A stretch of 32,934 nt of DNA from Candidatus Latescibacterota bacterium. Its GTDB lineage: Bacteria; Latescibacterota; Latescibacteria; Latescibacterales; Latescibacteraceae. Position 1 is the first letter of the stretch; every line of letters begins with the position of its first letter. The position numbers were made by a program, and so were the translations under genes. The DNA lies in NCBI GenBank assembly GCA_016927495.1, contig JAFGMP010000067.1, positions 1 through 32,934 on the forward strand. Direction: 5' to 3'. The notes under the pieces are model-generated. The model was not told the DNA's origin, did not search any database, and was given only the letters and a program-made list of their open reading frames with translations. Of the stretch, positions 12,230 to 18,160 are shown in pieces.

Positions 12230-12244
12230 TGGGGAATAGTGGGG
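12230..12244 (+). promoter_or_regulatory. MraZ operator boxes (TGGGG x2, 10 bp pitch)
   Basis: TGGGG at 12230-12234 and 12240-12244 are separated by five bases, matching the known MraZ site of TGGGN repeats with 5-base spacers. A degenerate AGGAG at 12220-12224 keeps the same 10 bp phase and could be a third box. They sit at the predicted transcription start, where MraZ binding would repress its own operon, as known in E. coli and mollicutes. Confidence 0.75.
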
Positions 12245-12465
12245 CATTATCCCTTATTAGGGCTGATTCCTCTAAGTGTATTTAAAATAGTAACTTACAA
12301 TAATATTGTTTTTGCATGTTTGAGATGAGCTATGTGCGCACATGACGCGGATTTTATGAAAAATGCATAATTTCCTGTGCGGTCCACATATGCTGCGGCA
12401 ATTTTTTCATAGAAAAGCTGGTTACGGAATAAGAATTTTCGTTTAAAAAATCAAAGGTCTGTGTC
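12245..12465 (+). other. long mraZ 5' leader with nested hairpins
   Basis: About 220 bases separate the MraZ boxes from the mraZ ATG, with no ORF. An in-frame stop at 12430 rules out an earlier mraZ start. Two structures are visible: a perfect 12-base palindrome ATGTGCGCACAT (12332-12343), and a nested stem at 12355-12411 (TATGAAAAA with TTTTTCATA, GCATA with TATGC, TGTG with CACA). No known riboswitch is recognised. Confidence 0.4.
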
Positions 12466-14156: not shown

Positions 14157-14169
14157 AAAGGAGAAAGTT

Positions 14170-14382
14170 ATGGCGTTAATTGGCAGGTTGTTGACAATAA
14201 TCGGTTTGTATATGGGTATGACTTTGGTTTTTGTGGGCATCCAGGCCGGCCTGATCGAAGGGATATATTATCTTTTCACGAAACGGATTTTGGAAACAGG
14301 CCCCCATGGCACACGTTTTATAGTATTTCTCAGCATATTATTGTCGATTGTCTGGGTATGTTTTTTCACAGGTACTTTTTGA
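14170..14382 (+). CDS. small two-helix membrane protein of unknown function
   Basis: I do not recognise this 70-residue protein. It is nearly all hydrophobic: a first membrane helix at about 6-34 (LTIIGLYMGMTLVFVGIQAGLIEGIYYLF), a short polar loop KRILETGPHGTR, and a second helix at about 49-68 ending CFFTGTF. A strong AAAAGGAGA lies about 6 bases before the ATG, and it sits 13 bases after ftsL and 11 bases before ftsI in the same operon, so it is very likely translated. Both ends would face the same side of the membrane. A divisome accessory role is only positional inference. Confidence 0.72.
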   Translation: MALIGRLLTIIGLYMGMTLVFVGIQAGLIEGIYYLFTKRILETGPHGTRFIVFLSILLSIVWVCFFTGTF

Positions 14383-14393
14383 GGTAAGATTAG

Positions 14394-16493
14394 ATGTATA
14401 TCGGTCCTTGTGTCTCACGTCAACAGTTTGCGATAGTGGTCTTTATTTTTATGTGGTTGATTCTTGTTGTGAAGACCGGCACTATTCAACTTTCAGGGCA
14501 TAGCGGTTATGAAGCCCGTGCACTCGATCAGCGTATGGACCCTATGATAATCCATGCAAAACGTGGTACAATATATGACAGAAACGGTGAGAAATTAGCT
14601 GCCAGTCGCGCATCAGCATCATATGGCTTAATGCCGCGGAAAATTGAAAATCCTGATAAAGCAGCACAACTGCTTGCCCAGGCCACAGGACAAAATTTTG
14701 TGGAATTACGGAAAATGTGTACTTCTGATAAATCTTTTGTATGGTTAGCCAGACAGCCTGATCCATCGATTATCAAACGACTCGACATACTTACTTTAGA
14801 AGGATTAACCAAACAATTCGAATTCAACCGGTATTATCCCCTTGGATCAGTCGGTACACAGATTATCGGACTTACCGATATTGATTGTAATGGTATTGAG
14901 GGGTGTGAACTGTATTTTAATGATGATTTATCAGGTCGGGACGGTCGGTCGACACTATTAAGAGATGGCAGGAACAGGTTAAGTCCCTCACTTGATGAGC
15001 CTCTTATAGAACCGGTCGATGGTTTCGACATAAAACTGAATGTTGATTGGCGTATTCAGGAAATAGCCGAGGAAGAACTCGAAGTAAGCCTTCTTGATAC
15101 AAAAGCTGAATGGGGTGGGGCAATAGTGCTTGATGCCGGCTCCGGTGAAATTCTGGCAATCGCCAATGTTCCCAAAATTGATCCTAATCATTCAGCTATT
15201 CATCCTAAAAAACCCGAATATATGAGAAATAAACTGGTGACAGATATGGTTGAACCCGGTTCAACATTTAAAATTGTTGCTTTTACGGAAGCCCTCGATT
15301 CCGGAATTATAAACGAAGACGATTTGATAAATTGCGAAAATGGTAATTACAGACTGGCGAGTCATAATATCAATGATTTTCATAAACTCGGTGTCGTTCC
15401 CGCTCGCGACATATTAATTCAGTCATCAAATATCGGTACAGTCAAAATAGCCGATAAGATCGGTAAAAAGAAGCTCTATGAACGTGCACGGCTAATGGGG
15501 TTCGGGGAAGTGACCGGAATAGATTTGCCATATGAAACACCGGGTAGTCTTCAAAATCCCAAAGAATGGTCAAAACTCTCTTTACCGACTATTTCATTTG
15601 GGCAGGGTGTTGCGGTATCACCCCTTCAGATTGCTATGGCCTATGGTGCCATTGCGAACGGAGGCGAACTGCTTACACCCCGTATCGTTAAAGAAATCAA
15701 ATGTGACGATGACCGGTCCGGACGATCTTATGACACGGCAAAAATTCGTCGTGTGATGAAACCGGAAACCGCACGCCGACTTACCGAACTGCTGGTTGGT
15801 GTTGTAGAGGAAGGAAGTGGTAAAAATGCCGCAATTCCTCATGTTCGTATAGCCGGTAAAACCGGTACCGCCCAGAAAACGGAACCGGGGAAGGTTGGAT
15901 ATGTTTCCGGAGAATATATTTCATCGTTTGTAGGATTTGTCGATGATCGTGAGCCTAAAATCGTGTGTCTTGTCATAATCGATAATCCCAAAGGTTCATA
16001 TTATGGTTCTCAGGTAGCGGCTCCGGTATTTAAAAATATTTTAAACCGCATGATGAACATGAGCGATAACCCCTGGGAGTCGATGCCGGTTAAAAAAGAA
16101 AATGAAACCGTGATAAAAACCGTTCAAATTCCCGATGTCACAGGTAGCAAAGTTTCCGATGCTGTAGTGAAACTACGTGATCTCGGATTAATAGCGGATG
16201 TATCGGGTGATTCGACTTTGGTGGTAAATCAATTTCCTTTAGCGGGAGCTTGTGTTAATACGGGTTCTACCGTAACCCTCTACAGCGATACGTCCACAAC
16301 CATTAAAACCGGTCGCATCATGGTTCCTGATCTGGTGGGCAAATCGATGAGGGAAGCCATCCAGGAACTGGTTCGAAATAATCTTGATGTTAAAGTCAAA
16401 GGTTCGGGTATAGTAAAAAAACAGAATCCTTCTGCCGGGGTATTTGTTGAGCACGGTACGATTTGTTTGATAGCTTGCAGTAAGATCTATTGA
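14394..16493 (+). CDS. ftsI: septal peptidoglycan transpeptidase FtsI/PBP3 with two PASTA domains
   Basis: This class B penicillin-binding protein crosslinks septal peptidoglycan with FtsW. The 699-residue protein has an N-terminal membrane anchor (about 12-28), a dimerisation module beginning IIHAKRGTIYDRNGEKLA (about 52-69), and the transpeptidase domain with the catalytic S290-T-F-K293, S344-S-N346, and K489-T-G-T. Two PASTA modules follow (about 573-630 and 636-699, starting IPDVTGSKVSDAV and VPDLVGKSMREAI). E. coli FtsI lacks PASTA, whereas SpoVD-type and Bacteroidetes FtsI proteins carry it. GAGGTAAG lies about 5 bases before the ATG. It is followed by the hairpin element rather than directly by murE. 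Confidence 0.95.
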   Translation: MYIGPCVSRQQFAIVVFIFMWLILVVKTGTIQLSGHSGYEARALDQRMDPMIIHAKRGTIYDRNGEKLAASRASASYGLMPRKIENPDKAAQLLAQATGQNFVELRKMCTSDKSFVWLARQPDPSIIKRLDILTLEGLTKQFEFNRYYPLGSVGTQIIGLTDIDCNGIEGCELYFNDDLSGRDGRSTLLRDGRNRLSPSLDEPLIEPVDGFDIKLNVDWRIQEIAEEELEVSLLDTKAEWGGAIVLDAGSGEILAIANVPKIDPNHSAIHPKKPEYMRNKLVTDMVEPGSTFKIVAFTEALDSGIINEDDLINCENGNYRLASHNINDFHKLGVVPARDILIQSSNIGTVKIADKIGKKKLYERARLMGFGEVTGIDLPYETPGSLQNPKEWSKLSLPTISFGQGVAVSPLQIAMAYGAIANGGELLTPRIVKEIKCDDDRSGRSYDTAKIRRVMKPETARRLTELLVGVVEEGSGKNAAIPHVRIAGKTGTAQKTEPGKVGYVSGEYISSFVGFVDDREPKIVCLVIIDNPKGSYYGSQVAAPVFKNILNRMMNMSDNPWESMPVKKENETVIKTVQIPDVTGSKVSDAVVKLRDLGLIADVSGDSTLVVNQFPLAGACVNTGSTVTLYSDTSTTIKTGRIMVPDLVGKSMREAIQELVRNNLDVKVKGSGIVKKQNPSAGVFVEHGTICLIACSKIY

Positions 16494-16523
16494 TCGCCGT
16501 AAGTAAGAAAAAAGTAATTTATC

Positions 16524-16667
16524 ACAGGTTAGTAATCAGCAGCCGGAATTAAACAAAAACATTTTCAGATTGTGTAAAATTCAGGGAAACGCAGTTGATA
16601 ACTAACAATAACCATTTTTGATAATAGTTTACTAACGGAATATTTCGGCTGCTGATTACTAACCTGT
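16524..16667. repeat. 144 bp element with 26 bp terminal inverted repeats between ftsI and murE
   Basis: ACAGGTTAGTAATCAGCAGC plus CG (16524-16545) is a perfect 22 bp inverted copy of 16646-16667. Pairing extends inward to 16549/16642 with one G-U, giving a 26 bp stem around a 92-base AT-rich loop. The loop and arms contain GTTGATAACTAACAATAACC-like and GATTACTAAC units, of the kind found in REP/MITE-type palindromic repeats. The right end lies 2 bases before an ATG that opens the murE frame. No T-run follows, so it is not a standard terminator. It looks like a non-autonomous inserted repeat, though this needs other copies in the genome to prove. Confidence 0.7.
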
Positions 16668-16705
16668 TAATGTCTAAGAAGTCCACACGGGAACAGAAAA
16701 GAATT

Positions 16706-18160
16706 ATGAAGCTGAATGAATTGTTTACGGGAATCGATAACATTGATTTGAGAGGTGATTCGAATGTTAACATTGAATCACTGCAGTACGATTCCCGAAA
16801 AGTTACCAACGGTTCACTCTTTATAGCCGTAAAAGGATTTACTATCGACGGTAATTCATTTATTGCCGATGCTGTTCGTAAAGGAACTGCGGCAATATTA
16901 ACCGCTGAGCCTTGTGAAATTGACACCATACCCGTAATTCGTGTTCCCGACATACGAAAGACTATGGCCATAGTTTCAGATCGCTTTTACGGCAGCCCCC
17001 AGAATGCACTCGTAATGACCGGTATTACCGGTACAAACGGGAAAACTACAACATCATACATGGTAAAATCTATTTTTGAGGCAGGTGGCTTCAGGTGCGG
17101 CCTTATAGGTACCATCAGTCATCTTGTGGCAGATAAAAAGATTCAGGCTTCAAATACAACTCCCGAAGCGCCGGATATTCATTCATATCTCGCATCGATG
17201 GTTGCCGCCCACCAGAGCGCCTGTGTAATGGAAGTGAGCTCTCATGCCCTTGAACTTTCGAGAGTGTATGGAATAAAATACAGGGCTGCGGCATTTACCA
17301 ATATTACAAGAGACCATCTTGATTTCCACGGCAGTATTGAAAGATATCTCGATGCTAAAAGTATTTTATTCAGCTCACTTCCGGGAGATTCTGCAGCAGT
17401 TATAAACCGTGATGACAGATATTCGGATCATATCATAAACGTTTCCAGAGATTGTGAGATTTTTACGTATGGATTCGATGATGTGAGCGATATCAGACCG
17501 ATTTCCTATGAATTAAATTCGAACGGTTCAAAGTTCAGGCTTTATGCGCCGGTCGGTGAGATTGAAGTATCGCTGAAAATTCCCGGACGATTCAATATAT
17601 CGAATGCTATGGCTGCAACGGGTATCGGTATAGCATGTGGTTTTCCGAAAGAAATTATTGCAAAGGGCTTTATGAATATGGAGCCGGTTAAAGGCAGGTT
17701 TGAAACGGTTGATGAAGGACAACCGTTTTCGGTTTTTATCGATTATGCCCATGCTCCCGATGCCCTGGAAAGGATTCTTACATCGGTTCGTGAGTTGACA
17801 TCAGGAAGGCTGATATCGGTTTTTGGCTGCGGAGGTGACCGTGACCGGGGCAAAAGGCCGATTATGGGTGAAATATCAACCCGTATAGCTGATGTAAGCG
17901 TAATTACTTCTGATAATCCGAGAAGTGAAAATCCAATGGATATAATACAGAATATATTGCAGGGAATATCCGGCAATAAAGGATATGAAATATTCCCCGA
18001 TCGTGCAGATGCAATTAAGTATGCGCTTGAAGCGGCAAATCCCGGCGATGCTGTGGTGATTGCAGGTAAAGGGCATGAAGACTACCAGGTTACAGGGACA
18101 GTGAGAAAACATTTTGACGATGCCGAAACTGCCCGTCAAATTCTCAGGTCATTGAAATGA
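16706..18160 (+). CDS. murE: UDP-MurNAc-L-Ala-D-Glu:meso-diaminopimelate ligase MurE
   Basis: MurE adds the third stem-peptide residue. From the ATG at 16706 the protein is 484 residues and starts MKLNELFTGI, like other MurE proteins. An ATG at 16670 would add 12 basic residues (MSKKSTREQKRI) directly after the inverted repeat. Neither has a clear ribosome binding site. Motifs are SLFIAVKG, the ATP-binding GTNGKTTT (109-116, K113), the TTPEAPDIH region, EVSSHAL, HLDFHGS, and D403-N-P-R406, the meso-diaminopimelate recognition motif, so the wall is probably DAP type. The end overlaps murF by 4 bases (ATGA). Confidence 0.95.
   Translation: MKLNELFTGIDNIDLRGDSNVNIESLQYDSRKVTNGSLFIAVKGFTIDGNSFIADAVRKGTAAILTAEPCEIDTIPVIRVPDIRKTMAIVSDRFYGSPQNALVMTGITGTNGKTTTSYMVKSIFEAGGFRCGLIGTISHLVADKKIQASNTTPEAPDIHSYLASMVAAHQSACVMEVSSHALELSRVYGIKYRAAAFTNITRDHLDFHGSIERYLDAKSILFSSLPGDSAAVINRDDRYSDHIINVSRDCEIFTYGFDDVSDIRPISYELNSNGSKFRLYAPVGEIEVSLKIPGRFNISNAMAATGIGIACGFPKEIIAKGFMNMEPVKGRFETVDEGQPFSVFIDYAHAPDALERILTSVRELTSGRLISVFGCGGDRDRGKRPIMGEISTRIADVSVITSDNPRSENPMDIIQNILQGISGNKGYEIFPDRADAIKYALEAANPGDAVVIAGKGHEDYQVTGTVRKHFDDAETARQILRSLK

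Follow-up and report, generated by a model that had tools for sequence, protein, structure and literature searches.

A single-copy inverted-repeat element, possibly a MITE-like insertion, in the ftsI–murE junction of a Latescibacterota bacterium

In the stretch of DNA analysed here (32,934 nt, referred to as the window), ftsI and murE are separated by a spacer carrying a short, AT-rich inverted-repeat element, at a junction that is 1 bp wide in the nearest relatives. The preferred reading, given a probability of about 0.55, is that a solitary MITE-like insertion broke a tight ftsI–murE junction. The features of the region are:

14394–16493, forward strand: ftsI, a PBP transpeptidase with two PASTA repeats (open reading frame; Pfam PF00905, PF03717, PF03793)
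16494–16705, no strand: lineage-specific spacer, 212 bp, from the ftsI stop to the conserved murE start (1 bp in genomes G001 and G003)
16524–16549, forward strand: left inverted-repeat arm, ACAGGTTAGTAATCAGCAGCCGGAAT (inverted-repeat detection)
16550–16641, no strand: element interior, 92 nt, between the arms (sequence; promoter and terminator scan)
16599–16606, reverse strand: internal arm-motif copy, GTTAGTTA, oriented as the right arm
16629–16636, reverse strand: internal arm-motif copy, GTTAGTAA, oriented as the right arm
16642–16667, reverse strand: right inverted-repeat arm, 22 bp perfect, 25/26 overall (inverted-repeat detection)
16670–16705, forward strand: in-frame 12-codon upstream extension of murE (MSKKSTREQKRI), probably untranslated (relatives lack it; no Shine-Dalgarno-like sequence)
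16706–18160, forward strand: murE from its conserved start, MKLNEL... (Pfam Mur ligase domains; alignments of relatives)

The inverted-repeat unit (16524–16667) is 144 bp long, with arms of 26 nt each that are 96% complementary and 92 nt apart. Pairing is perfect for 22 bp counted from the outer ends, as an earlier note on this DNA had stated, and the 26 bp extension described there pairs at 25/26 positions. Two further details given in that note are also correct: the unit ends 2 bases before an ATG at 16670, and 176 bases separate this ATG from the ftsI stop (16493). No other inverted repeat in the window is as long or as good, and the GC content of the element is 0.33, compared to 0.43 for the window. 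As RNA it folds at −53.2 kcal/mol (z = −5.27), and none of the shuffled sequences folded as well. The only long open reading frame entering it (16549–16971) lies antisense to murE and is not taken as evidence for a gene.

The rarity of this structure was assessed against its own genome (6.09 Mb, 521 contigs, 91% complete), using 738 kb of sampled stretches as the background for inverted repeats. At a threshold of at least 16 perfect pairs, the element was the sole inverted repeat in 324 kb. At 20 of 22 pairs and spans of up to about 440 bp, only four places were found in the 738 kb, the element included, and the other three all belong to repeated palindromic sequences, leaving the element as the only lone one. 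The structure is real and statistically striking, an inverted repeat far beyond chance. Two of the three other places, both in contig C69, hold copies of a short palindrome. The third, in contig C61 (L088:1414-1630), is a 217 bp inverted-repeat element with arms CCGAACTATTCATAAAATTTAT, 20/22 paired, and a C-rich core common to contigs C147 and C199.

The upstream gene ends in TGA (16491–16493) and its product has the transpeptidase, dimerisation and PASTA domains of Pfam, while a Mur ligase gene followed by a second Mur ligase gene lies downstream, fitting murE and murF. The 212 bp spacer is made up of 30 bp on the left, the 144 bp inverted-repeat unit, and 38 bp on the right. G001, of the same genus, and G003, of the same family, are the nearest relatives in which the ftsI–murE junction is assembled. 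In G001, ftsI ends in ...AAGAGGTAA, followed by one base and then the murE start, ATGAAACTC, a gap of 1 bp; the MurE proteins of G001 and the window are 68% identical. The gap is likewise 1 bp in G003. Genome G002 is uninformative on the junction, since no more of MurE than its final 40 residues was found there, at the start of a contig. Most of the other relatives examined have short or overlapping ftsI–murE junctions, and a few have wider ones. Because the gap is 1 bp in the nearest relatives, the spacer was gained in the window's own lineage, giving the contrast of filled and empty sites that is one criterion for MITEs. An empty site with ftsI and murE adjacent had been proposed as support for insertion, and two such sites are now at hand. 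The impression that genes elsewhere in the cluster overlap or lie a few bases apart is not right, as there are gaps of 512 bp (rseP–mraZ), 237 bp (ftsL–ftsI) and 119 bp (murF–mraY).

The start of murE could also be placed by comparison with relatives. The MurE alignments of G003 and many other relatives begin at residue 13 of the window protein, which is their start codon, and by eye the G001 start aligns with the same residue, indicating that the conserved start is ATG 16706 and not ATG 16670. No Shine-Dalgarno-like sequence was found upstream of ATG 16670, which lies directly behind the stem, and only a weak purine-rich stretch precedes ATG 16706. The 12-residue basic extension that the element was earlier suggested to have added to MurE is therefore doubtful, and is probably not translated.

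The structural traits given for bacterial MITEs (terminal inverted repeats, a size of about 100–200 bp, AT-richness and non-coding content) are seen in the 144 bp element, and its size, inverted-repeat length, low GC and absence of coding content are as published for such elements (PMC2229807). It looks like one of a familiar type, within the wide class of short non-coding inverted-repeat inserts, its mobility being putative. A motif, GTTAGTWA, occurs in both arms and in two internal copies in the right half of the element, in one orientation and at spacings of 30 and 27 bp. Four of its five occurrences in the window are within the element. Repeated copies near one end could be candidate sites for a transposase or another DNA-binding protein, and the two further internal copies match the expectation for protein-binding sites that recur close to the end of an element. 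No exact target-site duplication was found beside the arms, and a TA flanks the element on each side only when two additional bases are admitted on the left. The gained sequence also takes in flanks that relatives lack, 30 bp beyond the left arm and 38 bp beyond the right arm, so the insertion is more than an arm-to-arm one, which counts against the MITE-like reading.

The steps proposed under the MITE-like reading are as follows. A short AT-rich, non-coding segment with inverted repeats of 22–26 bp would have entered the ftsI–murE junction in this lineage only, presumably by transposition. The 1 bp spacing between stop and ATG in the relatives would suit translational coupling. With a spacer of 212 bp, tight coupling of the two genes would be lost, and murE would initiate independently at ATG 16706. 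Continuous transcription across the spacer is expected, because no terminator was found, and the mRNA would carry a long hairpin. This hairpin could be a target of RNase III, as for the Correia/NEMIS elements of Neisseria, with a possible effect on the mRNA.

Searches for sister copies gave uniformly negative results. By BLAST against its own genome (91% complete), the segment matched itself and its own arms, and otherwise gave chance matches at E values of 0.48 or more. The arm core, with up to three mismatches, had eight extra matches in this genome compared to six for a control pattern, and no partner arm was found within the sampled flanks of the eight. No contig end carries the element by BLAST, which fits a single copy since a multi-copy repeat would be expected to break or end contigs. 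In 59 relatives there was no BLAST match, and among 64 genomes of the phylum the two-armed pattern was present only in its own genome (0/63 others). Exact arm matches in GTDB genomes and viral contigs numbered four and three, respectively, all in unrelated contexts and lacking a partner arm; by our own estimate, a collection this large should yield about seven 18-mer matches by chance. Plasmid and phage collections gave only short chance matches by BLAST. An autonomous transposon with shared ends was not detected, as its own genome holds no second matching pair of ends and the matches in the collections have no partner arm, nor was a transposase with matching ends found.

The lack of a sister copy in any collection searched, and of a matching-end transposase, counts against a MITE-like insertion. 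Taken with the lack of a clear target duplication, the single copy and missing parent transposon mean that the element is not filed as a proven MITE. The idea of a mobile insertion put forward in the earlier note thus stands as to insertion, given the empty sites in the same genus and family, but not as to multiple copies or membership of the REP class: the search for many copies found one in its own genome and none in the 63 further genomes from its phylum, and the unit does not repeat. Repeated copies are usual for MITEs rather than a strict rule, and one published family has from 1 to 22 copies per genome (PMC10969869).

Among known systems, the element was likened by architecture to the Correia/NEMIS elements, which are about 107–155 bp long, AT-rich and intergenic, with inverted repeats of about 24 bp and a hairpin in the transcript (PMC2229807); the window element is similar in size, arms, AT-richness, intergenic site and predicted transcript hairpin. 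Cleavage of the hairpin by RNase III has been described for Correia elements, which are present in more than 100 copies (PMC10969869). They differ from the window element in having a target duplication and TA ends, and in their copy number, whereas it is a single copy with no clear duplication. REP elements are high-copy palindromes of 20–40 bp (PMC3733652) and, like the window element, are intergenic palindromic DNA, but the latter is single copy and has a 92 nt interior.

The main rival to a MITE-like insertion involves no mobile element. The spacer could have grown by ordinary insertion or drift, with the palindrome made in place by a replication template switch that reverse-copied about 26 bp to a position about 100 bp away. 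This would explain why there is one copy with no target duplication and no relative in any collection, and why additional sequence flanks the arms. A template switch alone leaves the gain of 212 bp unexplained, as well as the two internal copies of the arm motif, and this origin is considered unlikely, if still worth weighing.

An invertible segment is less probable again. A site-specific recombinase would flip the 92–100 bp between the arms and, by altering read-through or expression, switch murE together with the genes downstream. The arms are within the published range of 10–40 nt for inverton inverted repeats and flank a short segment upstream of a gene, which is inverton architecture (PMC11892184). 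The single copy and the near-perfect arms would also fit. Against this, no promoter-like site was found inside the segment, and no recombinase gene was seen among the open reading frames of the 33 kb window (nine were checked with Pfam). Invertases are often, but not always, near their invertons. Moreover, a switch would be unlikely to target an essential cell-wall gene. The specific version in which a recombinase acting in trans flips the segment, so that a switch within the division and cell-wall cluster makes coupling or expression of murE and downstream genes phase-variable, is a long shot.

It is also improbable, to nearly the same degree, that the hairpin in the ftsI–murE mRNA is a species-specific RNA regulator, tuning murE expression or mRNA stability under selection. 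The strength of the fold and its position just upstream of murE favour such a role, but the hairpin is absent from the same genus and family, no Rfam match was found in the window, and the element ends 38 nt before the conserved start, so that it probably leaves the ribosome site uncovered. An RNA element conserved among relatives is likewise unlikely, as the spacer was gained in this lineage. A folded, resident mRNA segment tuning murE, the other role offered in the earlier note, is accordingly left without support from conservation in relatives; of the two signs named there as pointing to it, a single copy was found, but a structure conserved in related species was not. A scan of 16400–16800 predicted no sigma-70-like promoter and no intrinsic terminator. 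The stem itself was rejected as an intrinsic terminator, having no T-run after it, and the element was rejected as an integron attC site from its sequence, the GTTAG/CTAAC boxes being in the wrong relative orientation.

An assembly artefact from a chimeric or fold-back read is the least probable explanation: the assembly is fragmented (521 contigs), but a fold-back should run on into the left flank's reverse complement, whereas pairing stops at the arm ends and the flanks are unrelated, and the element is mid-contig, between an intact ftsI and an intact murE.

Short non-coding inverted-repeat elements occur elsewhere in the family. The mraY–ftsW gap of G003 (L075:8400-8645) contains a 246 bp element with arms ATGTCGTTAAGTAAGC and 17 bp perfect ends. 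It has a C-rich palindromic core and about 40 long copies in that genome, and is apparently a large MITE family. Related C-rich palindromic inserts are found between mraZ and mraW, and between murG and murC. Like the window element, the 246 bp element is a short non-coding inverted-repeat insert with AT-rich arms in an intergenic gap of the same cluster, but it differs in its copies and C-rich core, and has no BLAST match to the window element. These inserts in gaps of the division and cell-wall (dcw) cluster show that the family carries such elements and that the cluster tolerates them. Together with the 217 bp element of contig C61, they favour the MITE-like reading. The element at ftsI–murE is most likely an ordinary, small, lineage-specific insertion.

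Usually tight, the dcw cluster tolerates lineage-specific, non-coding inverted-repeat inserts, in the window at a junction otherwise of 1 bp and in the same-family genome at mraY–ftsW, mraZ–mraW and murG–murC. The natural filled and empty sites provide a means of asking whether these essential genes need to be translationally coupled. In G001, the mraY–ftsW gap is about 238 bp (L074 3700-3966) and contains a short open reading frame, while the corresponding gap of the window is 12 bp, suggesting that gaps in the cluster have been gained at different places in each lineage. The ftsL–ftsI gap of the window (14157–14393) contains a possible unannotated open reading frame of about 69 codons for a small membrane protein (MALIGRLLTIIGLYMGMTLVF...). 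Upstream of mraZ, at about 12235–12260, are GTGGGG repeats, which we take to resemble MraZ binding boxes, a putative assignment.
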